From Candidatus Peribacteria bacterium RIFCSPHIGHO2_01_FULL_51_35 (GTDB lineage: Bacteria > Patescibacteriota > Gracilibacteria > Peribacterales > Peribacteraceae): DNA of 63,712 nt. Location: positions 1-63,712 of the forward strand of contig MFXP01000011.1 in assembly GCA_001787535.1 (NCBI GenBank), written 5' to 3'. A program made the position numbers and the translations under genes. Positions 33,903-59,271 of this stretch are shown piece after piece; the first letter of the stretch is position 1; the number at the start of each line of letters is the position of its first letter. Under the pieces are notes generated by a model. That model saw only the letters and a list, made by a program, of their open reading frames with translations. It was not told the origin of the DNA and searched no databases.

Positions 33903-35165
33903 TTAAAAGCTCTTCACATTCAACACCGGTTCCGCGAAGACATCCGGATCGCCTACGAATCCGCCGGAACCGCTTTGAACTGATCCTGCTGCAATAAGGG
34001 CATTGCGCACGGCGGCAACTCCTGCCGCATCCGTCGGCTTGCCGCTCACTGCGATGTACAGAGCGGCAGCGCCTGCTGCATGCGGACTGGCCATACTGGT
34101 GCCGCTAATGGTGGCGTAGGAGGAGCCTTTCCATGTCGAGCGGATACAGACGCCGGGAGCGGCAATGTCCACGACGGCGCCGAAGTTGCTGAAGTTCGCA
34201 AACGAATCATCGACATCCGATCGGCACGTTGCCGGCGCTCCGCCACCCGGCAGACCGTTGAAATCCGCGATGGCGGACACGGCGAGAACATCCGGGTGAT
34301 TGGCAGGGGAGAAAGTGGCCGCATCTTTGGCGGAATTTCCCGCAGCCACCACAACGGTGACGCCGGCTGCAACGGCGCGGCTGATGGCCAAGTCCATGGC
34401 TGCGCTCACGCACTCGCAACCCAAGCTCATGTTTGCGACTTCGATGCTCGCGGCATTGGCAGTGACGTAGTCGATGCCGGCAACGACATCGGACAGCAAC
34501 CCCGATCCGTTTCTGTCCAACACTTTCACGGACCAAATGCGCGCCCCCGGGGCTACGCCCACGACGCCGACGGTGTTGTCTTTTGCGGCAGCCGTTCCTG
34601 CGACATGCGTGCCGTGCCCGTTGCGGTCATCCGAACTCAGTTCACGCGTGAATCGCACTTGTTTGAACACATTCAAATCCGGGTGGCTCTTCTGCACGCC
34701 CGTATCAATGATGGCGATATCGGCGTTCACGCGCTCATCCACACCATTGATCATTGCCGTGGGGCTCACATCTGCGTCGATGCGATCAATGCCCGTCGGA
34801 AGTGTTTGTGGAGGAGAGGTATGTGAAAATGCGTAGACCACTCTGTCCGGTTCCACCAGTGCAACATCGGGATCATTCCTCAGCGCCAACACCGTTGCAT
34901 CACTCAGCTTGCCTGCAAATCCTTTGATGGAAGTGAACTGCAGCTGCGTATTTCTGACACCGAATTTTTTCATGGTTGCCTCCATGCCACCTGCGCTCAT
35001 TTCCTTATTTTTGAAGAGCACGATGAATCGTCCCGCTGCGGATTCCTCCGCGACGGGCAAGGTATCGACATAGTCCATCGGCAGTTCATCCGCGTGCACG
35101 ACACTCAGCACCGTGCAGAGCGAAGAGAGGGCGGCAATGGTCCGGACAAAATATGAGGAGCGCAT
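33903..35165 (-). CDS. secreted subtilisin-like serine protease
   Basis: A 420-residue S8 peptidase. I start at ATG 35165, giving the signal peptide RSSYFVRTIAALSSLCTVLS ending near VHADE. An I9-type propeptide follows (AGRFIVLFKNKEM to VEPDRVVYAF). The catalytic triad is in IAIIDTGV (Asp), NGHGTHVAGT (His) and GTSMASPHAAG (Ser), with the oxyanion Asn in AAGNSAKD. No membrane anchor or sorting signal follows, so it is probably released or loosely bound. The IS sits 13 bases beyond its stop. Confidence 0.9.
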   Translation of the reverse strand: MRSSYFVRTIAALSSLCTVLSVVHADELPMDYVDTLPVAEESAAGRFIVLFKNKEMSAGGMEATMKKFGVRNTQLQFTSIKGFAGKLSDATVLALRNDPDVALVEPDRVVYAFSHTSPPQTLPTGIDRIDADVSPTAMINGVDERVNADIAIIDTGVQKSHPDLNVFKQVRFTRELSSDDRNGHGTHVAGTAAAKDNTVGVVGVAPGARIWSVKVLDRNGSGLLSDVVAGIDYVTANAASIEVANMSLGCECVSAAMDLAISRAVAAGVTVVVAAGNSAKDAATFSPANHPDVLAVSAIADFNGLPGGGAPATCRSDVDDSFANFSNFGAVVDIAAPGVCIRSTWKGSSYATISGTSMASPHAAGAAALYIAVSGKPTDAAGVAAVRNALIAAGSVQSGSGGFVGDPDVFAEPVLNVKSF

Positions 35166-35379
35166 ACAAAGGTGAAGAAAAATAGTGAAGACGTTTAGTG
35201 TAGCGGAAGATTGTGCGCAAAGGAATTGTTCGCAAGGCAAGAGGTACCATGGGATAATAGCGCAGTACGAAGCGATAAATATTTCCTCTGAACAACAAAA
35301 GTGTGCGACAGCCAAATGCTTGTAACATTCGTCGAAGCATTGATACCATTCCCCCCTTTTTCTGTGTGGTTATTGCATC

Positions 35380-35943
35380 ATGGAAGCATCACTTCATCTC
35401 CGGGAACGGTTCACTCGCGCCTACGAGGAGTATGCCGGAGGCATCAGAAGATTTTGCATGCAGCAGGGGGCGGAGCCCGCGGATGCCGAAGAATTTGTGC
35501 AGGAAGCGTTTCTCCGCACATGGGAGTACCTCTCGTCCGGCAAAGAAGTGATCCACTTAAAAACATTTTTGTTCCAAGTGGCGCAGCACGTCATGTTCGA
35601 CGAAGCGCGACGCAGGCAGCGGAAGAAAGAACTGTCCTTGGATGCATTGCAAGAAGCGGGGTTTGACCCCGGTCACGATGACACGGCGACGATGCAGAAA
35701 CGCTTGGAAGCAAAGACCATCCTGACGAAAACGGATGTGGAAAAAGAGTACAAAATACTCGTCATGCGCTACCTCCACGGATTTCCCGTGCATCACATCG
35801 CATCCATCGTCGGGCAAACCCCCAATACTGTTGCAGTCCGATTGCATCGAGCTGTCAAACGGCTGTCACGCGTGTCAATACCCGGTTTGCATTTACTTGC
35901 CGTTAAATCGTCAGCAGAAGCTCCGAAAAAAACGATCAACTGA
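35380..35943 (+). CDS. ECF-type RNA polymerase sigma factor
   Basis: 187-residue sigma factor with region 2 (RFCMQQGAEPADAEEFVQEAF, then TFLFQVAQHVMFDEARRR) and region 4 (HHIASIVGQTPNTVAVRLHR). No anti-sigma factor is adjacent. About 100 bases downstream begins the 1720-residue repeat protein, with a possible ECF-type promoter in between, so this sigma factor may control it. An intact counterpart to the frameshifted factor at 7005. Confidence 0.88.
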   Translation: MEASLHLRERFTRAYEEYAGGIRRFCMQQGAEPADAEEFVQEAFLRTWEYLSSGKEVIHLKTFLFQVAQHVMFDEARRRQRKKELSLDALQEAGFDPGHDDTATMQKRLEAKTILTKTDVEKEYKILVMRYLHGFPVHHIASIVGQTPNTVAVRLHRAVKRLSRVSIPGLHLLAVKSSAEAPKKTIN

Positions 35944-36041: not shown

Positions 36042-39000
36042 ATGCCTACTGTGCATCGGTCCTCACGGGCCAGGACACACAAGAAAAAGAAACAGCAGAA
36101 GTTTCTATCCCTCTCCCTTCGGAGCGTCCTCTCGGCAAGCGTTATCGCTGTGATGATTCTGTGGGTGAATGGCACGGCTTCCGCAAACCAGTTCAGCGCT
36201 ATTACAACGGTCGCGAACACCATTGTTTCGGCCATTTTGAGCCCGAGCTCTCTCTTCACGACGACTGTGAGTCAAACCTCCGTCGGTCCCGTGAACCAGA
36301 GTGCCACGTACAACGGCTCTGCCGGAACAACCTCTGGCGTTTCCGGAACTCTCGATGCAAGCAACACAGCAGCGGTGAATCAATTGGAGACGGCCGTCGG
36401 TTCCACGAACCAGGACGGTTCCATTGATGGCACGGCTCTGTCCGATGTCCTTGTGGATGTCGCTGCGGATTCCACCGTCACGGCCACGGTCGGTCAGACG
36501 GCCACAGGTCCCGCGAACCAAGATGCCACGGGCACGAGCGACGGTTCCACGGATGTCGCAAGCACCCTGGGTGTCGATTCGACGAATGACCTTGTCGTCG
36601 ACCAGGAGGCGGACACGGGGCTCATCAATCAAGCCGGTAACATCGCAGCCCTCGCGGGTTCGGATGTCGACCAGGTGCTTGATGCAGGTTCCACGGGAAC
36701 GTCCACGGTCGCCCAGGCTTCCACGGGCGGTCCGGCAAACCAGGATGTCACGAACGTGACGGTTCTGGAGACGGTTCTCAACGCAGTGCAAAACATTCTC
36801 ACATTCAACATCGTCACGATCGATCAGGATTGCGTCGGCACCTGCAACCAGACAGCCGATGTGGACGTGGATGCACTCACGCTCGCGGAACAAACCCTCA
36901 CGGGTGACGCCACGGCGGTGAACACGCTCACGCAGAGCAATACGGGCGGATCCACGAATCAAGGCATGGGCAACGACTCCTCGGTGAGCTCTCTACTCTC
37001 CGCACTGCAAGACATCCTGACGGGCAATACCGTCGGTGTGACGCAGACGGGCACGGGCGGACCTGCAAACCAGGATATGGCTTTGGACGGAACGGCTGCC
37101 GCAGCGATGGGTCAAACCGTCGACGGCAATGCCGTGACGGTGGATGAGCTCACGCAGTCCACTGTGGGCGGTGCTTCGAACCAAGATCTCGCCAATGCCG
37201 GTTCGGCAGTCGATGTGATCCTCGCCGGGCAGGCGGGTTCCGCACTGAACACGGTGCTTGCCAGCCAGGACAATGGCGACGGCAGCACGAACCAGAACAT
37301 GGATCTCGGCTTTGACGCCGCCATCGGAGGACTCCAGGTGATCGATGGTGACGCAGTGGCCGTAAGCGACCTCACGCAAGCCAATGTCGGCGGCGCGGGA
37401 AACCAGAACGGCGCAAATGATCTTCTCGCCAGCGACACCATCGTCGCAGGCCAGGAACTGCTCGCCGGCAACACTATCGATGCAAGCCAAGACAACGGTG
37501 CAGGAGACTCGAACATGGACATCGCTTCGGATGTTTCTTCCCTCACGGAAGGCACCCAGGTTGTTTCCGGTCCGGCTCTTGCTGTCACGACGGCCGTCCA
37601 GGCCAATGTCGGCGGCAATGCGAACCAAGATTTTGCAAATGCAGGCATTGCGTCGGATGTGATCGTTGCGAGCCAAGCGCTCGGATCCGCCAATGACGTG
37701 GATGTCGACCAAGACAACGGCGATGGCAACGGCAACTTTACAGCGGGTGTCGCCGCTCTTGCGGGCGTCGCGGGTGTGCAGGCGGTGGAAGGAACAGCTG
37801 CCTCCGTGAACCTCATCGGTCAGGCTGTCGTTGGTGGCGATGGCAACCAAACACTCGACAACGCTTCCCTCGCTGCGGACGTCATCGTCGCGGGCCAGGG
37901 AATGGATGCCACGAACAGCGTGGACGTCGACCAGGACAACGGCACGGGTAACGGCAACTTCGAAGCCGGCGTGGACGTGGTGGCGGATGCAGACGGTGTG
38001 CAGGCGATCGAAGGCACAGCGGTCTCGGTGAATGCACTGGGACAGGCAGTTGTCGGCGGTGCAGGCAACCAGGGTCTCGCAAATGATTCCACAGCAGCGA
38101 ACGTCATCGTTGGCGCGCAAGACTTGCTTGCGGGCAGCGATGTCGACGTTTCACAAAGCAATGATTCCGGCAACGGCAACTTCGATGCGGGAGTCGGCGC
38201 AGTGGCCGATGCGGACGGCGTGCAAGCCATCGGCGGCACGGCTGTCTCCACAACCCTCGCGGGTCAGGCGGTCGTCGGCGGTTCTGCAAATCAAGACATG
38301 GATCTGTCCTCTGTCGCTGCCGACACGATCGTCGGCGGACAGGGTGTGACGGCAGGACATGCGATCGATATTGATCAGAATAACGCTTCCGGCAATGCGA
38401 ACTTCGGCTCGGACATCCTCGCGGATGCGGATGCCGATGGTACGCAGGTCATCACGGGTCCGGCAGTCGCTTCCACGACGGCCGTCCAGGCCGGTATCGG
38501 CGGTGACGTGAACCAAGATATGGATAACTCGACCACAGCGGCCGATGTCATCGTCGCGGGCCAGGAAATCCTCGCCGGCAGCGAAGTGGACTCAGACCAG
38601 ACGAATGGGAGCGGCAATGCAAACATGGATGCCGGCGTCACGATCCTTTCCGATGCAGATGGCGAACAGGTGGTTGTCGGTTCGGCGATTGCGGCTAACG
38701 ATCTCTCCCAAGTGGGAGTCGGTGGCAGCGCCAACCAGACCATGGCAAACGATTCCACGGCTGCGGATGTCATCCTTGCGGGACAAGCGGTCTTCGGCGG
38801 CAGTGCCGTCGAGATGGACCAAGTGAACGCGGATGGCAACGCAAACATGGACATGGATCTTCTCGCCGACGCAGACGCGGACGGCGTGCAGGTTGCGGTG
38901 GGTACGGCCGTCTCCGCCAGCGAGCTCGACCAGACGAATGTCGGTGGAGACGCGAACCAAACCATGGATCATGACAGCGACGTCGCGTCCGTCACGGCTC

Positions 39001-41204
39001 TGGACCAAGCGGCTGTTGCTGTGAACGAAGCGAGCCTCTCGGAAGATAACGGTGCAGGCAGCGCAAACATGGACATGGTTGCGGCCATGGATAGCGACGC
39101 AAACGCCACGCAAGTGGGCACGTCCGTCGCCTTGGACAGCGCCACGTTGGAGCAGGCGAACGTCGGAGGCCAGGCAAACCAGAACCTCACCAGCAACACG
39201 CCTTCCACGGCGGTCACGACCGGTGAGCAGGCAGTTGTCGCTGCGAACGGTGCGGAGATGAATCAAGACAACGACGGCGGTTCCGCAAACATGCTCGCAG
39301 ACGCGGACTTGGACAGCGGGGCAACCGGTGCACAAGTGTTGACTTCCGTTGCCGCAGATGTGGTGACGGCGGATCAATCCAACGTCGGAGGCCAGGCAAA
39401 CCAAACCGCGGACTTGGACAGCGCATCCACGGCGGTCACGTTGGGTGACCAGACAATCGTGGGCGCGAACGGCGCACTCGTGAACCAGGACAATGATGAC
39501 GGCAACGGCAACCTCACGGCACTCCTGGACATGGATGCGGACGCCGCGGGTGAGCAAGTCGTCACGTCGGTTGCCACCGGCACGACGGATGTCGACCAGA
39601 CGAATGCAAGCGGCAATGCCAACCAGGGCGCCGCCAGCGACGGCACGTCCACGGCGGTGGGTGCCGGAAACCAGGAAATCACAGCTCTCAATGACGCCGA
39701 TATCGACCAGGACACGGACACGACGCTGGGTGCAGGGGCACAAGCTGCGGATATCACGACCGAAGCGGACGCCACGGGTGGTCAGACAGTCGTCTCCGCT
39801 TCAGGCAACGACCAGGATCTCGATCAGACGAACGGCAGTGGCCAAGCGAACCAGGACGGCAGCAACACGGCTGACGCTCTCTCGCTTGCAGAAGCCAACC
39901 AAGAGATTGCGGCTGTGAATGACATCGACCTCGATCAAGACATCGATCTCACCGCAGGTGCCGGTGCACAATCCACGACGATCATCGCCGATGCAGATGC
40001 ATCCGGCACACAGACAACGGTCGCTGCCTCCGACAACGAGCAGGATCTGGATCAAGTGAACGCGGGAGGCTCTGCAAACCAGACGGGCAGCAATGACGGC
40101 TCCGCCGTTGCAGTTGCCGATGCGGGCTCGTCACAGACCATCACAGCTTTGAACGACATCGACGTCGATCAAGATTTGGATGCCACGAGCGCCGCAGGCG
40201 CACAGTCCGCTCTCATCACGCCGACGGCCACGGCCACGGGTGATCAGACGACGGTGGCGGCTTCCGGTAACGATCAGGGTCTCACGCAAGCAAACGACGG
40301 TGGTGCTGCGAACCAGGACGGTAGCAACACAGGGGCTGCCACGACGGTTGCGGATGCAGACCAGGACATCTCCGCTACGAACACGGTGAACCTCATCCAA
40401 GATGCGGATGCCACGAACGCCGCAGTCGCACAAGCTGCCATCGTCTCGCCGACTTCGACTGCAGGCGGCAGCCAGACGGTGGGTGGAACATCCGGCAACA
40501 CGCAAGATGTGAACCAAGCAGTGGATGACGGCTCCGGCAACCAGACCGGTTCGAACGATGGCGAAGCGACAACGGTCGCCTCGGGCGAACAGGATGTCGA
40601 CGCTTCCACGACCACGAACATTCTTCAAGACTGTGACGTGAGCTTCGGCGCTTGCGCACAGTTCGTCGACCTCGCTCCGGGATCGGACGCATCTGCGACG
40701 CAAACACTGGAGGCAGGTTCCACGAACGATCAGACGGTGAACCAGGCAGTGGAAGATGGAACGGGTAACCAGGATGCTTCCAACACCGGTTCCGCCACCA
40801 CGATCGCAGATGCGGATCAAGATACTTCCTCTTCCACAGACACGACGGTCGTCCAGACCTGCACGCTGACGGGTGGTGCATGCGCCCAGTACACGGGCGG
40901 CACGCCAACGTCGTCCACCACGGCTGAACAGGAGATCACGGCAACGTCTGCCAATGACTCCGAGATCAACCAAGATCTGGACAGCGATGCTTCCGGAAAC
41001 CAAGATGCGGATTCCGACACCAGCGCCCTCACGGACATCTCCGCTGTGCAGAACGCTCTCTCGGACACGAACACGAGCGTGACGCAGACTTCGGGTGCCG
41101 GCGGCAACCAGGCAGCCACGGTCAATGGTTCTTCGAACACGACCTCCACCATGACACTCACCGGAGGTTCCTCGAACACAACCACGATCAATCAGAACCA
41201 GTAG
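36042..41204 (+). CDS. giant curlin-like repeat protein (1720 residues)
   Basis: A secreted fibrous protein. A basic N-terminus (RTHKKKKQQK) and a hydrophobic segment (SVLSASVIAVMILWVNG) form a long signal peptide cleaved near ASA-NQ. The rest is a tandem array with a period of about 75 residues made of three shorter units, each with Q-x-x-x-G-x-x-N-Q or DQDNGxGNxN. The spacing of Gln, Gly and Asn recalls curlin repeats, which fold as beta-solenoids and form amyloid. No Lys or Arg occurs after Arg27, so about 1690 residues lack positive charge. Cysteine pairs appear only in three units (DCVGTC, DCDVSFGAC, TCTLTGGAC). No wall anchor is visible. Confidence 0.8.
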   Translation: MPTVHRSSRARTHKKKKQQKFLSLSLRSVLSASVIAVMILWVNGTASANQFSAITTVANTIVSAILSPSSLFTTTVSQTSVGPVNQSATYNGSAGTTSGVSGTLDASNTAAVNQLETAVGSTNQDGSIDGTALSDVLVDVAADSTVTATVGQTATGPANQDATGTSDGSTDVASTLGVDSTNDLVVDQEADTGLINQAGNIAALAGSDVDQVLDAGSTGTSTVAQASTGGPANQDVTNVTVLETVLNAVQNILTFNIVTIDQDCVGTCNQTADVDVDALTLAEQTLTGDATAVNTLTQSNTGGSTNQGMGNDSSVSSLLSALQDILTGNTVGVTQTGTGGPANQDMALDGTAAAAMGQTVDGNAVTVDELTQSTVGGASNQDLANAGSAVDVILAGQAGSALNTVLASQDNGDGSTNQNMDLGFDAAIGGLQVIDGDAVAVSDLTQANVGGAGNQNGANDLLASDTIVAGQELLAGNTIDASQDNGAGDSNMDIASDVSSLTEGTQVVSGPALAVTTAVQANVGGNANQDFANAGIASDVIVASQALGSANDVDVDQDNGDGNGNFTAGVAALAGVAGVQAVEGTAASVNLIGQAVVGGDGNQTLDNASLAADVIVAGQGMDATNSVDVDQDNGTGNGNFEAGVDVVADADGVQAIEGTAVSVNALGQAVVGGAGNQGLANDSTAANVIVGAQDLLAGSDVDVSQSNDSGNGNFDAGVGAVADADGVQAIGGTAVSTTLAGQAVVGGSANQDMDLSSVAADTIVGGQGVTAGHAIDIDQNNASGNANFGSDILADADADGTQVITGPAVASTTAVQAGIGGDVNQDMDNSTTAADVIVAGQEILAGSEVDSDQTNGSGNANMDAGVTILSDADGEQVVVGSAIAANDLSQVGVGGSANQTMANDSTAADVILAGQAVFGGSAVEMDQVNADGNANMDMDLLADADADGVQVAVGTAVSASELDQTNVGGDANQTMDHDSDVASVTALDQAAVAVNEASLSEDNGAGSANMDMVAAMDSDANATQVGTSVALDSATLEQANVGGQANQNLTSNTPSTAVTTGEQAVVAANGAEMNQDNDGGSANMLADADLDSGATGAQVLTSVAADVVTADQSNVGGQANQTADLDSASTAVTLGDQTIVGANGALVNQDNDDGNGNLTALLDMDADAAGEQVVTSVATGTTDVDQTNASGNANQGAASDGTSTAVGAGNQEITALNDADIDQDTDTTLGAGAQAADITTEADATGGQTVVSASGNDQDLDQTNGSGQANQDGSNTADALSLAEANQEIAAVNDIDLDQDIDLTAGAGAQSTTIIADADASGTQTTVAASDNEQDLDQVNAGGSANQTGSNDGSAVAVADAGSSQTITALNDIDVDQDLDATSAAGAQSALITPTATATGDQTTVAASGNDQGLTQANDGGAANQDGSNTGAATTVADADQDISATNTVNLIQDADATNAAVAQAAIVSPTSTAGGSQTVGGTSGNTQDVNQAVDDGSGNQTGSNDGEATTVASGEQDVDASTTTNILQDCDVSFGACAQFVDLAPGSDASATQTLEAGSTNDQTVNQAVEDGTGNQDASNTGSATTIADADQDTSSSTDTTVVQTCTLTGGACAQYTGGTPTSSTTAEQEITATSANDSEINQDLDSDASGNQDADSDTSALTDISAVQNALSDTNTSVTQTSGAGGNQAATVNGSSNTTSTMTLTGGSSNTTTINQNQ

Positions 41205-42645: not shown

Positions 42646-42675
42646 TTGACATGAACATGATTTTGTATTTATAAT
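42646..42675 (+). promoter_or_regulatory. consensus promoter with start codon at the transcription start
   Basis: TTGACA (42646-42651) and TATAAT (42670-42675), both perfect, 18 bases apart. The ATG of the SLH protein is at 42682, six bases after the -10, where transcription itself should begin. This is the clearest leaderless case in the window. Confidence 0.85.
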
Positions 42676-42681
42676 GCCGTC

Positions 42682-44022
42682 ATGGTTCGCTGGAGTTTCA
42701 TCATTCTCTCAGCTGTTTTTTCCCTATCGTGGGTGCAGCCGGCATTCGCACAGTACGTTTCCCTTCAGGAATTTGCACTACATGATTTTGATAAGGATAT
42801 TTTGAAAAAATTGGGATTCGAAATCGGCGTTGTGGTGTATTACAGCGAAATGGCGTCCATCAATTCCGAACAAATCACGGAACGCAAGCACCACGAACGC
42901 ATCGGCTGCAATCCTTTTCTCGTGATGAAGGAAGGGCAAGTGCTAGAAAAGGGATACAACTGCCGATCCTTTTTTTGCGCTGGATATTTGAAAGGGCCCA
43001 AGCAATGCATAAATGAAGCCGGTGAACCCATGGGCGGCGTTGTGGAAATCAATCGACGCTTGAGCTTGATGGAGATACCGATTGTCGATACTTTTTTTGA
43101 GACGTTCGTCGAGGAAGAGAAAACCGATGCCATGCGGTTGCGCATGAAGGAACTTGATTCCGTGCGTTGCAGACCATTCTACCTTCGCATGTTCGATATC
43201 CTCGTGGGGGAAGGCTACGCCTGCGATGAAGTGGGAGCATTTCCGTATTTTTCACCTGCAAATGTCTGTACAGATGATTGGCGAGATGCCAAGGATACAT
43301 TTACTTGTCGCATTCCAGAACGCACCGATGAATTCGGTATTCGTTTGACTGCCATTGAACTGCGCGGCGAAGGAACCGCAAGCAGCGCACTGTCGGAATG
43401 GGCTTCCGTTTCATCGGAATCGAGTTCTTCTTCCGGCATGGGTGTCATCACCTTCTTTCCCGATGTCATCGCAGGACAATATGGTTTCACCGCCATCATG
43501 GATCTCCTGCGTCGCGGCGTCATTCAAGGGTACGACGACGGACTCTTTCGTCCCAAGGCGACGGTGAACCGGGCGGAATTCGTGAAGATGCTGATGGCGG
43601 GTTTGCACCCGGAGGAAGCGCAAAGGGAAACCGATTGTTTTCCGGATGTGACGGATCAATGGTTCAGCGGATACGTCTGCGCCGCGAAACGTTTGGGGTG
43701 GGTGTCCGGGTACCGGGACGGCATGTACCGTCCGGAACAAACCATCCGTCGTGACGAGGGTCTCAAGATCGTTGTTGCTTCACTGGGACATGCGCTCGAT
43801 AGCGCCGCTCCGCTGCCGCCGGATGTGGCGGATGAAACATGGTTCACGCCGTATGCGCGGAAAGCGATGGAACTCCGTTTGATTTTGGAACCCACATTCC
43901 GTCCCATGCTCCTGGCCACACGCGCCGACGCAGCGGTCTGGATGTACCGAGCACTCCAGGCGCTGGGGGCAGCGCAGAGTTCCCTTTCAACGACTTCCGA
44001 AAACTCTTCTATAAATCCGTAA
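42682..44022 (+). CDS. secreted protein with three SLH domains
   Basis: 446-residue surface protein. Signal peptide VRWSFIILSAVFSLSWVQPAFA with cleavage near AFA-QY. Residues 24-235 form a Cys-containing domain not recognised (about ten Cys). After a Ser-rich linker (SSESSSSSGMG), three S-layer homology repeats complete the protein: FPDVIAGQYGFTAI with GYDDGLFRPKATVNRAEFVK, then FPDVTDQWFSGYV with YRDGMYRPEQTIRRDE, then a weaker third. SLH repeats bind a pyruvylated or similar wall polymer. The start abuts a perfect promoter. Confidence 0.87.
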   Translation: MVRWSFIILSAVFSLSWVQPAFAQYVSLQEFALHDFDKDILKKLGFEIGVVVYYSEMASINSEQITERKHHERIGCNPFLVMKEGQVLEKGYNCRSFFCAGYLKGPKQCINEAGEPMGGVVEINRRLSLMEIPIVDTFFETFVEEEKTDAMRLRMKELDSVRCRPFYLRMFDILVGEGYACDEVGAFPYFSPANVCTDDWRDAKDTFTCRIPERTDEFGIRLTAIELRGEGTASSALSEWASVSSESSSSSGMGVITFFPDVIAGQYGFTAIMDLLRRGVIQGYDDGLFRPKATVNRAEFVKMLMAGLHPEEAQRETDCFPDVTDQWFSGYVCAAKRLGWVSGYRDGMYRPEQTIRRDEGLKIVVASLGHALDSAAPLPPDVADETWFTPYARKAMELRLILEPTFRPMLLATRADAAVWMYRALQALGAAQSSLSTTSENSSINP

Positions 44023-44218
44023 GGATTACATACAAGTGTCAATGTCAGATCCCCGGGAAGCGACTGCGTCAAGATAAGAGATTTTGGCTTATGATTGCCA
44101 AAAATTGAAAATGCCGACGAAGAGAATTGATCATACTCCGTGATTGACACAATCTTCCAAACACGAGATCCTCACCCCCTTCATTCCGTTTTTTTCTTGC
44201 TCGCTTCCCCTCGTTCGT

Positions 44219-46366
44219 ATGACTGCTCGCTTCTTCTCCCGTTTTGACGTCATCATCGCATTCGTATTTTTCCTTCTTACAACGTGGATTCTCGGCGGCG
44301 CAACTCTTTCCGCGTTTGCAGCCGGGGAAACATGCAACGGACTCGCAGCGACCATCGTGGGAACCGCAGGCAACGATAACTTGAACGGCACTTCGGGCGA
44401 TGACGTCATCGTTGGCCTGGGCGGCAATGACGGCATCAACGGCAACGGCGGCAACGACACGATCTGCGGCAATGAAGGCAACGATGACATCAACGGCGAC
44501 AATGGTGACGACTACATCGAAGGCGGCGACGGTGAAGATGATATCAAAGGCGACAACGACGAAGACACGATCTTTGGCGGTGCGGGCAATGATGAGCTCG
44601 ACGGCGGCAATGAAGATGACACGCTCTGCGGCGACGCAGGCAATGACAAGCTCGAAGGCAAAAATCACAACGATATCCTCTGTGGCGGCGACGGCGATGA
44701 CACGCTGGAGGGTGGTACCGGCGATGACAAACTGGATGGCGGAGCAGGGACGGACACTCTAAAAGGAGAAATCGGTTCTGCCGATGCTTGCCATCAAGGT
44801 GAAACCAATTCCGGCTGTGAATCAACCAGCGGCTCTCCGTTGGCCGACTGCCCCGCGAGCGGCGGCGGAAGCAGCACATCCAGCGTGAGTTCCTCTTCTT
44901 CCTCAGATTCCTCCAGCAGCGAAGGCGGCAGTTCCGCATCATCCGAATCTTCCAGCAGTTCCTCCAGCGTCGTGTCCTCCTCTTCCTCCTCCGACGGGAC
45001 GCCCACATGCAGAGGACAGGTGGCAACGATCTACGTTCAGGAAGGCGTGATCGTTGGCGGCGACGATAATGGTGATGCGTATGAAGGAGCGTTGGAAGGC
45101 AGTTCAGGAAATGATGTCATTGTTGGAACTTCCGGTGTGGACAACATCGATGGGGAAGTGGGAGACGATGTTATTTGCGGCCTGGGAGGCAATGATGATG
45201 TGGAAGGCGGATTGGGCGATGATGAAATCGATGGCGGTGAAGGCGATGACACACTCAACGGTGAATTGGACAATGACACGGTCTGCGGCGGAGCCGGCGA
45301 TGACACGCTGCTCGGCAGCTTGGGCGATGACACGCTCTGTGGCGATGCCGGCAATGATGTCCTGGATGGCGACATTGGCGATGACAAGCTGGATGGCGGA
45401 GCGGACACGGATGAATTGGACGGCGGGCTCGGCACCGATGCGTGCCACCAGGGCGAATCAAACTCGGGATGCGAATCCACCAGCGCCTCTCCGCTCGCGG
45501 AGTGCCCCGCTACCGGCAGCAGCTCCTCCTCCACGGCAGGCTCAGATGGCTCTTCCAGCACCGGCGGTTCCGATGGTTCCGCCTCCAGCAGTTCTTCCGA
45601 GAATGGCGGAGGAGGTTCCGAGGGTTCCAGTGTTTCTTCCTCGGGAGATTCCAGTTCCACGGGTGATAACGGAGGGGGCGGTGAAGACGGTGGAGGGGGC
45701 GGCAGCCTTGATTTGACGGGAACCAATGGCGAAGGAGGACACCGAGGACACCGGTTGAACGTCGTCCTGGGCGTCGTCAACGCACTGGTGGCATGGAACT
45801 TGCAAGATCAGGTCAATCGTTTCAATGGAATTCCCACGGGAGGGTTCGGCGGCGTGGCTCCGGGAGCCTTTGGCGGTCGACCGGGTTCGGCTCTGACGGA
45901 TGAAGAACAGAATGTCATCTGCAGTCTTAAAAAGGCGCTTCCAAGCGTCATATCGAGCATCATGATGGATTGGATCGTGGCATATCTGTCGAATCTGGTG
46001 AACGGCAATGTTGCGCTGATCATCGACGAACTCTCGGACCCCGATGCATGTAAGAATGACCCGGTGACGCCCCTTGCTCAGAAATCCACCCCCAAGCCTT
46101 TTGCCATTTCCGGAGACGGATACCCCGTTTCTTCCAACGAGATTTTCAACACGTGCCTGCGCGGCGAGCGTCTGACGGTGGCGGAGGTGCGCTACAATCC
46201 GGAAAATCCGGATCATCTCTCCTGCGGTGACTTTACGCACGAGAAAGGTGTGTGGTACCACCCGGACTATCACGTGTATTTCACCTGGGACAAGACCACG
46301 AAAAAGCTTGGGGTTCCGGACGGATTCTACGCGTACGCGTTGCCGTATAACGTCGTTCAAAAATAA
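44219..46366 (+). CDS. RTX-repeat surface protein
   Basis: 715 residues from ATG 44219. A signal segment (VIIAFVFFLLTTWILGGATL) precedes two blocks of calcium-binding nonapeptides (GGxGxDxxx; for example GGNDTICGNEGND), each followed by a QGETNSGCESTSGSPL or QGESNSGCESTSASPL element and a Ser-rich linker. The two halves are clearly a duplication. The last 230 residues are a separate domain with hydrophobic helices and CSLKKALPSVISSIM. RTX repeats fold on binding calcium outside the cell. An unusual trait is the cysteines inside the repeats (ICGNE, LCGDA). No type I secretion genes are seen, so Sec export is assumed. Confidence 0.84.
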   Translation: MTARFFSRFDVIIAFVFFLLTTWILGGATLSAFAAGETCNGLAATIVGTAGNDNLNGTSGDDVIVGLGGNDGINGNGGNDTICGNEGNDDINGDNGDDYIEGGDGEDDIKGDNDEDTIFGGAGNDELDGGNEDDTLCGDAGNDKLEGKNHNDILCGGDGDDTLEGGTGDDKLDGGAGTDTLKGEIGSADACHQGETNSGCESTSGSPLADCPASGGGSSTSSVSSSSSSDSSSSEGGSSASSESSSSSSSVVSSSSSSDGTPTCRGQVATIYVQEGVIVGGDDNGDAYEGALEGSSGNDVIVGTSGVDNIDGEVGDDVICGLGGNDDVEGGLGDDEIDGGEGDDTLNGELDNDTVCGGAGDDTLLGSLGDDTLCGDAGNDVLDGDIGDDKLDGGADTDELDGGLGTDACHQGESNSGCESTSASPLAECPATGSSSSSTAGSDGSSSTGGSDGSASSSSSENGGGGSEGSSVSSSGDSSSTGDNGGGGEDGGGGGSLDLTGTNGEGGHRGHRLNVVLGVVNALVAWNLQDQVNRFNGIPTGGFGGVAPGAFGGRPGSALTDEEQNVICSLKKALPSVISSIMMDWIVAYLSNLVNGNVALIIDELSDPDACKNDPVTPLAQKSTPKPFAISGDGYPVSSNEIFNTCLRGERLTVAEVRYNPENPDHLSCGDFTHEKGVWYHPDYHVYFTWDKTTKKLGVPDGFYAYALPYNVVQK

Positions 46367-46442: not shown

Positions 46443-47540
46443 TTACCGTGCGCTCACAGCCGTGCCGGCGTGGTTTTGAATGAATCGAATGGGGTGCACG
46501 GTGAATCGTTCTACATTCTTACCGGAGGGAATTGCAGATGGCCAGTAGGGAGTGTGCACGGTCTTTCCTTCTTGTTTGCGGTCTATCTGCAGGTGCAGGT
46601 GCGGGGCAGTCGTGTTCCCTGTCATGCCGACATATCCTACGATTTGTCCCGGTTTCACCGTGTCTCCTTCTTTCACGTTCAGGCGGCTGAAATGTCCATA
46701 GATGGAGTAGAACGTTTCTCCATTCGTGCGGTGCTCCACGACAACAAACAGCCCCAAGCCTTTGCCGGTATCGATGCGATGCACTTTCCCTCCCGCAACG
46801 CTCCCGACGGGCGTACCCAATGCCAGCTTGATGTCCACGCCCGGGTGCACGGCGCTGAATTCCGATGCGTCCAGATCATATTTCCCAAAATAACGCGTGG
46901 AATACACAAGTTTTGCAGTGATGTCCGGCACGTGCTCTGCGCGCGCAAGCAGAAGCGTCTGCATGGGCTGTGTCAGAACATCCAAATCGTAGGCAGGCAC
47001 GTTCACAAAATCCGCGCGATTCATTTCCTGAAATGTTCTGCCCCATTCTGCCGGCGTTTCCATGATGCCCCAGTTTGGGACTTTGGTGACAGGGAATACC
47101 GCATGCTCAAACGATGGAAACGCATCACTCTTCGGCATGATCGCTTCCGCAGGGAGACTCACGACTGCCCGTGGAACGATGATTGTTTCCGCGGGTGCCG
47201 CGGATTTCATTTGCTCCGTTTGATTTGTAAGCCGAGGGGATCCTGCAAGCGGTTGCGACGGGTCCGCGGACTCGATCTTTTTTGAGAGCAGAACAGGCTC
47301 CTTTTTCCGCACAGTCGAAACAAGAGGCTTCTGCTGCATCCTTATTTTTCGTTCCATGCTGTTTCGCGGCCGCATGTGCGAGAGGATCATGGCGGTCTTC
47401 GGTTCGGCATCACTCAGGCCAATGCTGACACCAAAAATGATGCCAAACGATCCTGCAATGAGGATCCTGCCATGCGATTCCCACACGCGATGCAGGAGCC
47501 AGGTCAGGCGCTGGAGGTATGTGTGTATGTGTTGGAACAT
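46443..47540 (-). CDS. M23-family murein endopeptidase, membrane-anchored
   Basis: 365 residues. A membrane segment near residues 28-45 (ILIAGSFGIIFGVSIGL), a low-complexity linker of about 150 residues, then an M23 (LytM) domain with the zinc residues in HPGVDIKLALG and HLHLQID. M23 enzymes cut peptide bridges in peptidoglycan, so it may remodel the wall. A TTTACA-N17-TATAAT promoter ends eight bases before the ATG, predicting a leaderless message. Confidence 0.87.
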   Translation of the reverse strand: MFQHIHTYLQRLTWLLHRVWESHGRILIAGSFGIIFGVSIGLSDAEPKTAMILSHMRPRNSMERKIRMQQKPLVSTVRKKEPVLLSKKIESADPSQPLAGSPRLTNQTEQMKSAAPAETIIVPRAVVSLPAEAIMPKSDAFPSFEHAVFPVTKVPNWGIMETPAEWGRTFQEMNRADFVNVPAYDLDVLTQPMQTLLLARAEHVPDITAKLVYSTRYFGKYDLDASEFSAVHPGVDIKLALGTPVGSVAGGKVHRIDTGKGLGLFVVVEHRTNGETFYSIYGHFSRLNVKEGDTVKPGQIVGYVGMTGNTTAPHLHLQIDRKQEGKTVHTPYWPSAIPSGKNVERFTVHPIRFIQNHAGTAVSAR

Positions 47541-53863: not shown

Positions 53864-56800
53864 CTATTTCTTGCGGCGTCTTCGCATCCAACCCAGACCC
53901 GCCGCCGCACCGGCCGCCATCGCGACGACGGCTGCGGGACCGGTGTCATCCAATGGTCGATCCAAGGGAATGGGAATGACGGAAGCAACGGGGGGTTCTC
54001 TGTAGAGGGGAGGACCTTGCGGAGTCGGCAATGGGAACTCGGGCATGCCGGGCAGGAGCGGCAGCGGAATAATGTCCGAAGGCGGCTCGGCGGCAAAACT
54101 TTCCCTGCGGCACATACTGTTGCAGCCATCACCGTTTTGGCGGTTGGCGTCATCGCACTGTTCGGAAGAATCCAGCACGTTGTCGCCGCAGCGCGCGTTG
54201 GAACAATTGGTGCGACAGCGGTTGGGCAATTGATCACTGTTTGCATCGCCGTTGTCACACTCTTCTCCCGAGTCGACGGTTCCATTGCCGCAGAAGAGCG
54301 AGAAGAAGCGGCAGTCCTCTCCACAGCGGTACGGAAGATTCCTGTCGTGGAGCGAGGGTTCGCACTGCTCACCTTGCATCTTCTGGAGGACGCCGTCGCC
54401 GCAGCGGCCAAGTTCCAGCAAGCATTTGGAGGAGCAGCCATCGAAGTCGCGGCTGTTGCCGTCGTCACATTCTTCACCTCTGGTCATTGCGCCGTCACCG
54501 CAACGCGGTTGTACGCCGGGTTCCAACGCGCACCGTCCGGAGCAGCCGTCGCCGTCGCGCAGGTTGCCATCATCACAGCTTTCCCCGGCGGTCTTCACGC
54601 CATCGCCGCAGAGGTTATTCACGAACTGACAACTTGGGGAGCAGCCGTCGGCGGCGCTCGCGTTGCCATCATCACACTGCTCTCCTGCCTGCACTCTGCC
54701 GTCGCCACAACCCGGCCGCTCGTTCTGGCATCCCGCCGCGCATCCATCGCCGTCGAAGTTGTTGCCATCGTCGCAATCTTCTCCCGCGGTCACCACAAAG
54801 TCACCGCAGCGCGGCGTTGTCGTGACGGTACAGAAGTTGCACCCGTCGCCTGTAAACACGTTGCCGTCATCGCACTGTTCACCTGCCTGCAGAATGGCAT
54901 CGCCACAGCGGCCGGTTTCCCTCTGACACGTGAAGGAGCAGCCATCCAGATCGCGCACATTGCCATCATCACACGCTTCCCCGGCAGTCACGATGTTGTC
55001 ACCGCAGCGCGGGTTTGTCGTAATCAGTCTGCAACGGTTATCGCAACCGTCACGGTCGAACAAGTTTCCATCGTCGCACTGTTCGCCGGCATCCAACCGA
55101 CCGTCTCCGCAGCGCGGTGTTGTCACCGTGCGGCAACCGGAAGAACAGCTGTCATTATCGCGTATGTTGCCATCGTCGCACTGTTCACCCGCGTCGATCC
55201 TGCCGTCGCCACAGACGGGACGGGAGCTGACACTGGAGGATCGGCTCGATGAGAGCGGAGTGGATGACTGGAATATTTGTACGCTGGATCCTCCCGAAGA
55301 TGCTTTGCTAGAACTCTTGCTGGAACCGGTGGAACTTGCGGAAGAGCCCGGAGGCGGGGGCGGAGTAGTACCGCCGGAACTGCCTCCCGAGCTGCGCGAT
55401 GAGCTGAGGCTGGAACTCTGGGAACTTTCGCTGGAACCAACAGAGGATCGTGAAGAAGAACTCACAGAAGAACCCACGGAACCCGGAGTGGATGACACGC
55501 CGGAGCTCTTCGAAGAAGCAATACAAGCGGATGGGAAACAAGCGATGAGTCCCGGTTCACACACGTTATTGATACATTCGACATCACGACATTTTTTTGC
55601 ACAAGAACCATCCCCTTGGAGTTCGCAGGGTCCCGGACACACGGGTTTGCAATCTCTATCCGTCACGCATCGTGGTGCAGAGGAGGACGAGAACGAACTG
55701 CTTCTACTACTGCTGCTGGAACTACTCGTGGACGAACGGCTGTTGGAGAGTGAGGACGATGATCTGCTGCTGAACGAACTGAGAGAACTCGACCGCACGG
55801 AACCAATGGAACTGCCCGAAGGTGTGGGAGGAGGTGGCGGTTGAGGATTCGGTGGTGGCGGCGTTGGTGCGGGTGGGGGAGTGATGCCACCGTCGCCGCC
55901 TTGGGCTCCTCCCTGTGCGCCGCCAAGAGCACCGCCCAAACCTCCACCACCACCTCCCGGAGGACCTCCGCCGCCACCCGGGCCGGGGCCACCGCCTCCA
56001 CCCGGACCGGGGCCACCGTCCGGCGCAGGACAATGTGCAACAATTGCTTTTGCACGACAGCACTCAACATTTTTTCCGCATTCCGCTGCGACGAGCCCCC
56101 CCCTACAATCATCAAAAAAATCAGCAGCTCTTATTCCGGCGGCTTCATCCACCAAACAGCCACAGATGCCTTCCACAACACAAGCTTGGTTGGCTCCGCA
56201 TTTTCCTGCAAAATGCAGAAAAAGTGCGGGACGATCTCTGGCGGCGGGGCATTTAAGTTCACATACTTCCGTTACTCTTCCTTTAAGATCCGGATCACCC
56301 GCAAACAACTCTCTGACTTCCTGAGGTGCTGCACAGATCTCACACTTTGCTACTTCTCCTACCATTTTCAAAACAAGTCTTTTTCCATCTGCATCTTTTT
56401 GTGGGCAAAGGCATGCCTTACCTGCATTGAGTCCAGCATCAGGATGTGCCGGAGGCCCCACAGGAAGGGGCAGTTCTTTCAATGGTAGCTCGCATTCCAG
56501 AACTTGGCAGCCATCTCGGGAATCCACCGGATCTTTTATGAGGTAGCCCAGCTTGTCCTTTAGTGCTTTTTCGTCGAGCACCGGACAGCACGCATCTTCG
56601 ACTTTGCCGGCCATGCGTTCCAGATGACCCGCAACAAGAGGCCGAACCTTTTTGGGTTTTTCTTTTGTGCTTATACATACGGGAGCGCTGCAAGTGTCAG
56701 GTATCTTTGGAGGAACAACCTTACTTGGGATTTTGTCCGGGGGGAAAGGCGGTGTTTCCATCGTAAAGCCCAGTCGCCCATAAATTACTTTTAAGTCATT

Positions 56801-59113
56801 AAAGAAAGCAGGACAAGCAATGGCGACGCACATGGTGGTCTTAGATGGATCCGCTTTTCCAGCCATCATTGCATCTAAAACTTTTTCAAACACACCCTTT
56901 ATTTTTTCAGTATCAGTGCCCTTGGCGGCCTCCGATGCAACTGCTTTATCCAAAGCATCTTTTTTGGCAGCCGCTGCAGCCACACTTTTTTCAGCGGCCG
57001 CTGCCGCTTCCTCTGCAGCCTTTTTAGCCGCAGCAAAAGCATCCTCTGCTGCTTTTGCCGCAGCAGTTTTTTTGACAACATCTTCTTCTGCAGTTGCCAA
57101 AGCTTTCTTGGAAGCCTCATGAGCAGCTGTCGCCTTCGTAACTGCAAATTTGGACGGACCAAGGATTATATTTAAGGCATCCTCCGCAGTGCGCAGAGCC
57201 AGTTGCGCATTCGCGACAGCTGTTTGAGCGGCAAATTGCAAAGCAGGAGGTGCATTTTTTAAAGCCGCTTCCGCTGCAGCAAGAGCTTGCTTCGCAAGAT
57301 CCACAGCCCTTGCTGCGGGGGTTAATGCGAGAAGATTGGCGAGGTCACGCTCTGCAGCAGCTTTTGCCGCAGCAGCCTTTGTTACCTCTGCCCGCAAAGG
57401 AGCAACTTTCGCAATTGCAGTATCTCTAGCCTTCGCCAGTTTCTCTGCATTCTCTTTAGCAATTTCCGCAGCTTTATTTTTTTCTTCCACCTCTTTTGCG
57501 GTTACGGTTTTCCCTGCTGCTTTTGCAGCATCTGCTGCTTTTTGTATCGCTGCGGGAACGCCAGGTGATTCTGCAACGCTTTTTCCCACACCGGGAGGTA
57601 AGCCGGCATCTTTTGCAGCTGCTTCCACCATATCTGCAAAGTTCCCTTCCTTAAATTCCCCGCCCGGACATTCACATGTGCACATTTCGCCCGCAGCCAT
57701 TGCCTTCTTTGGCGTACCGCCCATTGCTATACAAGCTTCTTTTGTCACCTCTTTTACAGGAGTTACTACCGGACCCCCTTGTGCTCTCAACGTAGATTTA
57801 TTAATAGCAGCAGTTGTTCCTGATGCCTCCGTCACACGTAATACGTCGCACACTTCCGAATCTTTCCACGGTTGATAGTCATTCGGATCCAAAGGTGAAC
57901 CGAGAGGCAGTACATCTGAGCAGTCTTTGCAATAACAAACCGGATCGGTTTTATCTGCAAATCCATCCGGAGGAACGTTGTCATCTTTGTCATTATTGCT
58001 GCACTGAGGGAATTTGCATTTTGTTGTGCAGCAGCGATCCGATCCTTCTGCAGAGCATGTTTCTGAACCGTTATCTGCGCCTTCATCGCATTCTTCGGGA
58101 CTTTCTATTGTGCCATTGCCGCAGGTGTCAGAGCATTGCAGCGGGCCGTCAGTCAAACTTCCCTGACTGTTATCGAAAGGAGAATCAAGATCGCCAAGAT
58201 CTACACATGTATCTTCGGTAGAGAGGCTACTCGTGAGACAACAAAAACCAATTTTTTCTTGGAACCCGAGAACGAACGTAAAGCCACTAGGTTTGCAGAA
58301 TTCCTCGCAAGCATTGGTGCTTGTTTTTCCGCCCCTGCTTTCACATGTCTCACCTTGTCCCAGCTGCGCTGGCTCACAGAAAGGATTTTGGCTCTGGCGG
58401 TTGCAGACGAAGCAGTCACTTCCTCCGCCAGGAGGTGGAGGTGGGGGTTCGGGTGGTGGTTGAGGAGGCGGTTGTGGGTTAGGTTGGGGAGGAGGTTGGG
58501 GAGGCGGCTGCGGGGGTGGCTGAGGATTTGGTTGAGGCGGAGGCTGAGGATTTGGCTGCGGGGGTGGCTGAGGATTTGGTTGAGGTGGTGGAGTGCCACC
58601 TCCTCCTATCGGAATAACTACATTCTGTACGAAAGCATTGCACGATCCGCATGACTCTTGCGCGCCGCAGACGTTTGCCAAAGCAGCGGTAATAGCCTCT
58701 TCGCTTCCCGCTCCTAGCGCTCCCTGGACTGAGTTTCTCCAATTGTCCAGATTCGTTTTTGCCGCGTTATATTCCTCTATCGTTCCATTATCGGCAATGA
58801 TAACAGCCATGATATCTATCAATTCTTTTTCCTTTTTTATACAGCAGAAAGTAGGCGTAGATGCACTGACAGGATTATTGTTGCAGTCCTGCTTTGAGAA
58901 ATCGCACTGGCAGGCCTGAAGGGTTTCTCCTGTGTCCGGATCTGTAATCTCCTCGCACTTGGTAATATTGTGGCAATCACCAGCCTGTCCTGACTGTGCA
59001 AGGGGCGCTTGTATTGGTTGCTTAGGAAAATATTTTTCTCCCAAAAAGAAGGCCGCTACAAAGACAGCAAGAGCCGCAATGGCCAGCTGTGTGATGTAGT
59101 TGCGGGATCCCAT
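53864..59113 (-). CDS. giant cysteine-rich surface protein with DUF4215 repeats and sorting tail
   Basis: About 1749 residues from ATG 59113. N-terminal membrane segment (YITQLAIAALAVFVAAFFLG), Cys-rich region, a Pro/Gln linker near 171-228, further Cys-rich domains, an Ala-rich coiled coil (about 518-744), more Cys domains, Gly/Pro and Ser-rich linkers, then about eleven DUF4215 repeats (pattern CGDGxxxxGEQCDDGN, about 1299-1644). The C-terminus is PLDDTG, a hydrophobic helix and RRRRKK, like a sortase signal with LDDTG in place of LPxTG. Probably a wall-attached, disulfide-stabilised fibre. Function unknown. Confidence 0.85.
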   Translation of the reverse strand: MGSRNYITQLAIAALAVFVAAFFLGEKYFPKQPIQAPLAQSGQAGDCHNITKCEEITDPDTGETLQACQCDFSKQDCNNNPVSASTPTFCCIKKEKELIDIMAVIIADNGTIEEYNAAKTNLDNWRNSVQGALGAGSEEAITAALANVCGAQESCGSCNAFVQNVVIPIGGGGTPPPQPNPQPPPQPNPQPPPQPNPQPPPQPPPQPPPQPNPQPPPQPPPEPPPPPPGGGSDCFVCNRQSQNPFCEPAQLGQGETCESRGGKTSTNACEEFCKPSGFTFVLGFQEKIGFCCLTSSLSTEDTCVDLGDLDSPFDNSQGSLTDGPLQCSDTCGNGTIESPEECDEGADNGSETCSAEGSDRCCTTKCKFPQCSNNDKDDNVPPDGFADKTDPVCYCKDCSDVLPLGSPLDPNDYQPWKDSEVCDVLRVTEASGTTAAINKSTLRAQGGPVVTPVKEVTKEACIAMGGTPKKAMAAGEMCTCECPGGEFKEGNFADMVEAAAKDAGLPPGVGKSVAESPGVPAAIQKAADAAKAAGKTVTAKEVEEKNKAAEIAKENAEKLAKARDTAIAKVAPLRAEVTKAAAAKAAAERDLANLLALTPAARAVDLAKQALAAAEAALKNAPPALQFAAQTAVANAQLALRTAEDALNIILGPSKFAVTKATAAHEASKKALATAEEDVVKKTAAAKAAEDAFAAAKKAAEEAAAAAEKSVAAAAAKKDALDKAVASEAAKGTDTEKIKGVFEKVLDAMMAGKADPSKTTMCVAIACPAFFNDLKVIYGRLGFTMETPPFPPDKIPSKVVPPKIPDTCSAPVCISTKEKPKKVRPLVAGHLERMAGKVEDACCPVLDEKALKDKLGYLIKDPVDSRDGCQVLECELPLKELPLPVGPPAHPDAGLNAGKACLCPQKDADGKRLVLKMVGEVAKCEICAAPQEVRELFAGDPDLKGRVTEVCELKCPAARDRPALFLHFAGKCGANQACVVEGICGCLVDEAAGIRAADFFDDCRGGLVAAECGKNVECCRAKAIVAHCPAPDGGPGPGGGGGPGPGGGGGPPGGGGGGLGGALGGAQGGAQGGDGGITPPPAPTPPPPNPQPPPPPTPSGSSIGSVRSSSLSSFSSRSSSSLSNSRSSTSSSSSSSRSSSFSSSSAPRCVTDRDCKPVCPGPCELQGDGSCAKKCRDVECINNVCEPGLIACFPSACIASSKSSGVSSTPGSVGSSVSSSSRSSVGSSESSQSSSLSSSRSSGGSSGGTTPPPPPGSSASSTGSSKSSSKASSGGSSVQIFQSSTPLSSSRSSSVSSRPVCGDGRIDAGEQCDDGNIRDNDSCSSGCRTVTTPRCGDGRLDAGEQCDDGNLFDRDGCDNRCRLITTNPRCGDNIVTAGEACDDGNVRDLDGCSFTCQRETGRCGDAILQAGEQCDDGNVFTGDGCNFCTVTTTPRCGDFVVTAGEDCDDGNNFDGDGCAAGCQNERPGCGDGRVQAGEQCDDGNASAADGCSPSCQFVNNLCGDGVKTAGESCDDGNLRDGDGCSGRCALEPGVQPRCGDGAMTRGEECDDGNSRDFDGCSSKCLLELGRCGDGVLQKMQGEQCEPSLHDRNLPYRCGEDCRFFSLFCGNGTVDSGEECDNGDANSDQLPNRCRTNCSNARCGDNVLDSSEQCDDANRQNGDGCNSMCRRESFAAEPPSDIIPLPLLPGMPEFPLPTPQGPPLYREPPVASVIPIPLDRPLDDTGPAAVVAMAAGAAAGLGWMRRRRKK

Positions 59114-59271
59114 AAGGATAATCTTCGCAACACTACCAAATTGACTTCCAAAGAGACATGACTCTCTGCTTGCTACAGAGGATGTTCTCTTGTCTTCTAG
59201 TAAATGAAGGATGCTGTGCGTCAAGTGTCTCGCTTTGCGGGTATCGGCGGGTTCCCGTACGCTACGCGTGC

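Follow-up and report, generated by a model that had tools for sequence, protein, structure and literature searches.

How can a protein run for almost 1,700 residues without a single lysine or arginine (K/R), and what is such a protein for? The question is raised by an open frame in the 63,712-nucleotide stretch of Candidatus Peribacteria bacterium RIFCSPHIGHO2_01_FULL_51_35 (contig MFXP01000011.1) that was analysed here as a whole and is called the window. The product was originally predicted to be curlin-like and extremely acidic, perhaps forming an extracellular fibre, amyloid-like or bridged by calcium, that would be used for host contact. It is most likely a secreted surface fibre resembling functional amyloids. 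The reading that we prefer, with a probability of roughly 0.6, is that of a fibre subunit exported by Sec to the surface or the surroundings of the cell, which would have a stacked-beta fold, be controlled by a sigma factor and have had its K/R removed by selection. The features discussed below are given in Table 1.

Table 1. Features of the fibre gene and its neighbours, in window positions.
Feature	Position	Strand	Remarks
Secreted subtilase with I9 propeptide	33903..35315	-	divergent; Pfam Peptidase_S8 1.5e-41
ECF-type RNA polymerase sigma factor gene	35380..35943	+	98 bp upstream of fibre gene
Fibre gene	36042..41204	+	1720-aa K/R-free Q/N/G repeat protein
N-terminal export signal, residues 1-49	36042..36188	+	by reading the sequence
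N-side Cys module QDCVGTCNQT, residues 262-271	36825..36854	+	C-x3-C
Main repeat array, residues 271-1195	36852..39626	+	half repeats of 37 aa in pairs, 74 aa per unit
C-terminal ~76-aa repeats, residues 1196-1577	39627..40772	+	no large gaps when aligned to relatives
C-side Cys module 1, QDCDVSFGACAQF, residues 1529-1541	40626..40664	+	C-x6-C
C-side Cys module 2, QTCTLTGGACAQY, residues 1605-1617	40854..40892	+	
SLH-domain surface protein	42682..44022	+	Pfam SLH 2.6e-20
RTX calcium-binding repeat protein	44144..46366	+	Pfam HemolysinCabind 2e-40; recurs at G071, G049
M23 peptidase	46443..47540	-	Pfam Peptidase_M23 9.6e-25; recurs at G049, G071

Translation confirmed that the frame is open and gives 1720 residues, among which A, G, T and D are frequent, so that the composition is of low complexity. 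There are nine K/R in total, at positions 6, 9, 11, 14-17, 20 and 27, followed by the longest K/R-free stretch of the protein, 1693 residues. The original prediction was thus right on this point, and by implication also in that the protein is invisible to trypsin-based proteomics. The predicted acidity holds as well: counted from residue 50, the mature chain of ~161 kDa has 225 D+E, a net charge of about -225 and a computed pI of 4.05, which is the floor of the program. Histidine is found at positions 5, 13, 773 and 977. With the base composition of the gene's own codon positions, 111 K/R would be expected in the mature chain as compared to 0 observed (log10 P = -48). Read in its two other forward frames, the gene holds 382 and 418 K/R, so the absence cannot be put down to the DNA as such, and an artefact of base composition was ruled out since these frames are Arg-rich.

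Whole-protein searches of the blast type gave no match outside the window's own genome, and there was no match to the fibre in Pfam (0 families at E 0.1), NCBIfam or the PDB sequences. As whole-protein queries were insufficient, the relatives were found with a profile of the in-register 74-aa unit; one built from mixed relatives varied too much to scan contigs with. The fibre profile matched in 8 of the 353 genomes of the class, all eight of them within the family of the window genome, and in 379 sampled genomes of the phylum it had no match outside this family. No viral relative of the fibre was found. Long relatives are encoded in G049 (1755 aa; Candidatus Peribacteraceae STB_185, JAQTSK010000003), with 41% identity to the window fibre, in G068 (1084 aa; MAG USDE_maxbin.105, JAKQEM010000039) and in G071 (2618 aa). 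The fibres of G046 (1123 aa) and G013 (987 aa) are of a second type, with units around INAGSxNNIGVNQVGG. A profile of the C-terminal region joins these two to the window fibre (2e-19 and 2.6e-12), and judged from this profile the two types are homologous.

Some shorter or fragmentary relatives were also observed. A second protein in G068 (L023:7419-8681, +), a 420-aa open frame, is divergent from the long fibre and has no K/R in its last ~290 residues; it may serve as a minor subunit or one that nucleates, in the manner of CsgB or FapB. The 4.1-kb contig C50 of G040 (L122), which has N gaps, carries pieces of one more fibre that is almost free of K/R, and the frame breaks in them may be assembly faults. 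The short relative in G009 (L123:1737-2350, +) has Arg-rich loops between its Cys (QECDRARRGNCNQ) and is the exception to the K/R exclusion.

The alignment of the window and G049 fibres has 661 identical and 955 differing positions, and none of the 955 holds a K/R, even though 12.5% of the one-step non-synonymous changes from these codons would lead to one. The G049 fibre has zero K/R beyond residue 64, the G068 fibre 1 in 1009 residues, the G071 fibre 9 in 2556, and those of G046 and G013 one each, so the exclusion is common to five or six fibres. As far as sequence comparison goes, this shows that the purge over ~1,690 residues is kept by purifying selection on what would be the exported chain. 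The D+E content drifts from 9 to 16% among the fibres while K/R stay absent, which implies that what is conserved is the lack of positive charge and not a fixed negative charge. Nor does the fold need to forbid K/R, because FapC, unlike the window fibre, uses Lys in the stacking of its layers (PMC12392863), and Arg is present in the Cys loops of the G009 relative.

The RTX and Cys-rich secreted proteins of the neighbourhood have K/R-free runs of 124-523 aa, which makes the fibres the extreme of a trend among the exported proteins of the family. Taken one step further, the exclusion would be the mere tail of a general K/R poverty in the secreted low-complexity proteins of the lineage, and serve no purpose. 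This we find rather improbable, given that the window RTX protein contains 3.8% K/R, a rate at which 0 in 1671 residues has a probability of ~1e-28, and given the 955 substitutions free of K/R. A further giant exported protein, a 1786-aa Cys-rich repeat protein with ten DUF4215 / myxo_disulf_rpt stretches, is encoded at window 53864-59224 (-).

The repeats of the window fibre were predicted to have a period of about 75 residues. Within residues ~271-1195 the period is exactly 74, made up of 2 x 37, and only further on is it ~76. Self-identity was highest at lag 74 (0.35), followed by 148 and, as third, 37 (0.21-0.22), and in 500 residue shuffles it never exceeded 0.141 at lags 20-99. The skeleton ...Q..(N)..Q.N.GG.ANQ is invariant. 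TRF found no tandem repeat at the DNA level in the gene, which rules out a recent tandem duplication as the origin of the repeats and indicates that the copies are old and kept by selection on the protein. A short tail follows the ~76-aa units, and the protein ends in ...SSNTTTINQNQ. At the other end, by eye, all 9 of 9 K/R (residues 6-27) lie in a basic n-region, followed by the hydrophobic SVLSASVIAVMILWV and a cleavage-like site between TASA and NQ.

Structure prediction had been proposed as a check. Residues 604-825 were modelled with AlphaFold2 (AF2). Together with six in-register blocks of the same protein they gave an all-beta structure with a break every 37 residues. With the protein's own blocks only, the pLDDT was 78.8, other models going down to 33; when the relatives L050 and L051 were added (14 rows) it rose to 89.0, with a pTM of 0.69 and all 5 of 5 models above 70. 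The predicted structure is thus not disordered. In Foldseek the top match for both AF2 models, and the sole match below 0.001, was FapC (9u4u), with E 6.1e-5 and 5.2e-5, but the superposition on FapC was poor (TM 0.10-0.28, VIA Z 2.4-3.5). VIA-align scored the SufD beta-helix at Z 4.1 (93 residues, 3.0 A), FapC at Z 3.5 (87 residues, 4.3 A) and the CsgA fibril at Z 3.4 (70 residues, 7.3 A); these scores are ties. AF2 is prone to give solenoids for repeat sequences, and the description of this one as a parallel solenoid is taken from the secondary structure and the matches to beta-helices. Going by the model, the fold is most likely a stacked beta-solenoid with one layer of ~37 aa per half repeat, a reading that does not extend to a Greek-key fold in common with FapC, and this giant secreted protein of a tiny, uncultured bacterium probably forms a rigid stacked beta fibre on the cell surface.

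A composition that is low in complexity and rich in A/G/T/D, together with the acidity of all the relatives, would also fit a largely disordered polyanion, a coat of mucin or polyelectrolyte type in which the composition matters and not the fold. Such a coat is very unlikely in view of the confident beta prediction and of the strict Q/N/G register, with 17 invariant columns in 14 aligned blocks from three species. Furthermore, the D+E content of the G049 fibre is down to 9% and its Q/N/G pattern is intact. Bridging of the chains by calcium, as suggested in the original prediction, found little support: DxDxDG occurs twice in the window fibre, once in the G068 fibre and not in those of G049 and G071, and with a D+E content that varies as described above and no conserved acidic Ca-binding motif in the repeats, the idea was dropped.

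The Cys of the window fibre are found in pairs near both ends only, at 264/268, 1531/1538 and 1607/1614. The N-side motif Q-x-C-x3-C-x-Q is in a similar place in the G049, G068 and G071 fibres and also occurs in a small G013 protein. These three relatives retain both Q-x-C-x3-C and C-x6-C modules, and in C-side module 1 CDV...GACAQ is identical across the four long fibres. As the modules flank the array in all four, they could be end caps, and the protein would then be a monomeric adhesin or stalk, a single rod of about 20 nm (~45 layers of ~4.8 A) which does not polymerise. The large and variable length of the fibres (1084-2618 aa) is like that of rod-like adhesins, and an accessory amyloid exporter was not found. 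We nevertheless regard the single rod as unlikely, though a serious contender, since the chemistry of the Q/N/G repeats matches that of functional amyloids, and since no SLH, LPXTG or C-terminal transmembrane anchor could be read in the protein, although sortases are encoded in the window genome. Anchoring by a sortase or by SLH was rejected on the same ground, that is, no C-terminal LPXTG with a transmembrane segment and no SLH match.

The locus is an island of surface proteins. The sigma gene upstream of the fibre gene (Pfam Sigma70_r2 4e-10, r4_2 2e-8; NCBIfam sigma70-ECF 5.6e-20) has counterparts upstream of the fibres in G049, G071, G013 and G046, which with the window makes five genomes, and is 41-44% identical to the sigmas of the other fibre loci. 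In G046 one gene, with a weak DUF5667 match, sits between the two, and the G068 fibre has no sigma gene directly upstream. There are only 4-8 such sigma genes per genome, the main sigma factor not counted, and a repeated adjacency to the fibre is therefore unlikely to be due to chance. It is probable from this adjacency that the fibre gene is under the control of the ECF sigma, and a search by eye and regex for a promoter motif common to the fibre genes gave nothing convincing. Other sigma genes (L092:6861-8847, -; L094:1324-2963, -; L087:2620-3981, +) are followed by a large gene of 378-495 aa, the one in L087 with a weak DUF5667 match. These large genes may encode anti-sigma partners, and the window sigma has none.

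The subtilase recurs near the G049 and G071 fibres (69% and 35% identity by tblastn), and so does the SLH gene (42-49% identity by tblastn), which in G013 and G046 is found beside a short Cys-module protein. These short proteins (L080:7805-8926, -, and L029:1276-2340, -) are 373 and ~354 aa long and adjoin the SLH-domain gene, the G013 copy containing QTCGSNCTQ. A perfect TTGACA-18-TATAAT promoter is located at window 42646-42675 (+), immediately ahead of the SLH gene (42682), which suggests that this gene is transcribed separately from the fibre gene.

In the reading that we prefer, the fibre subunit would be transcribed with the help of the ECF sigma encoded just upstream, as seems probable, and exported through Sec, and cleavage of the signal would leave a chain of about 1670 residues. 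The mature chain would then fold into a parallel solenoid with one layer per 37-aa half repeat, ~45 layers in all, in which the conserved Q, N and G would line the turns and inner ladders while Asp and small polar residues face outward. The ends are probably stapled by disulfides in the Cys-pair modules. Purifying selection would strip the exported chain of Lys and Arg, the likeliest gains being that so long a polymer passes SecYEG smoothly and that trypsin-like proteases outside the cell do not cut it. The passage of Arg through SecYEG has been found to be rate limiting and Arg to be selected against in secreted proteins, Lys being far less harmful (PMC9110029), and a chain of ~1700 residues would be the most affected by this cost. 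The Sec argument thus predicts a loss of Arg more than of Lys, yet neither remains, and this speaks against the preferred reading as it stands. It also suggests a second pressure, for example from trypsin-like proteases. Easier export through Sec and resistance to such proteases are both possible benefits of the exclusion, singly or together.

Proteobacteria have well-described functional amyloids; for Patescibacteria, a search of one open-access library gave no paper that deals with surface fibres of amyloid type. Being unseen by trypsin-based proteomics, such fibres may be missing from existing metaproteomes. The fibre family offers a natural test of whether positive charge limits the Sec transport of long chains, and of whether the loss of trypsin sites protects surface fibres.

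The likeness to curli lies in a secreted protein with imperfect Q/N/G-rich repeats and a weak structural match to CsgA/CsgB. The predicted curlin-like spacing is a loose description: Q, N and G recur, the Q spacings within 37 residues being 16-12-9 and 14-14-9, and the window fibre gave 0 matches to the curlin regex S-x5-Q-x-G-x-G-N-x-A-x3-Q. As a statement on family the prediction found no support. Curlin_rpt (PF07012) matched neither the protein nor any of 59 genomes, that of the window among them, the E. coli positive control being matched, and CsgG (PF03783), which four control genomes have, is absent in the six fibre-holding genomes. One layer takes 37 aa (period 37/74) as compared to ~22 aa in curli. 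Curlin identity was rejected on the Pfam model, the motif, the period and the CsgG exporter, and in spite of the signal peptide, the repeats and the weak VIA superposition on the CsgA fibril, with Z 3.4 at an rmsd of 7 A, a true CsgA-like subunit has next to no probability.

The amyloid-like part of the original prediction fared better, in that a secreted beta-rich repeat protein had FapC as its top Foldseek match twice, but it is weakened by the poor superposition. To our knowledge an outer membrane is not to be expected in the Patescibacteria lineage of the window. Fap systems have been reported from Proteobacteria only, with an outer-membrane pore. The minimal Fap repeat G-x4-N-x3-G-x6-N (PMC3792158) has 0 matches in 7 of 7 fibres, and by its sequence the fibre would not be classed as Fap; the fibres of G046 and G013, however, each have three copies of a FapC-like short core, N-phi-G-phi-N-x3-G, where 0.03-0.04 would be expected.

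Two further systems share single traits with the fibre. The right-handed beta-helix of SufB/SufD has an arrangement in common with the fibre model, 92-93 residues over six predicted layers being superposed at 2.7-3.0 A, but it belongs to an enzyme-assembly protein with no relation in sequence. The archaeal sheath (SH) proteins (PMC11576556) are, from their description, amyloid-like surface material with disulfides, as we read the fibre to be, but their core consists of two sheets of six antiparallel strands and not of repeated 37-aa layers.

Among the known systems Pseudomonas FapC (PDB 9u4u; PMC12392863) is close in architecture, with its imperfect repeats of ~37-39 aa, Asn/Gln ladders and turn Gly, traits which on the fibre side are predicted. 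In FapC each repeat makes one cross-beta layer (PMC12392863), and the same is predicted for the window fibre, which differs in having no long linkers and ~45 predicted layers as compared to 3 (up to 16). It is conceivable, if somewhat doubtful, that the fibres are a new class of functional amyloid of candidate-phylum bacteria, with giant subunits, dozens of 37-aa layers and an ECF sigma of their own, in which complete K/R removal is the design rule by which a very long chain prone to amyloid passes SecYEG and survives outside the cell without a dedicated exporter.
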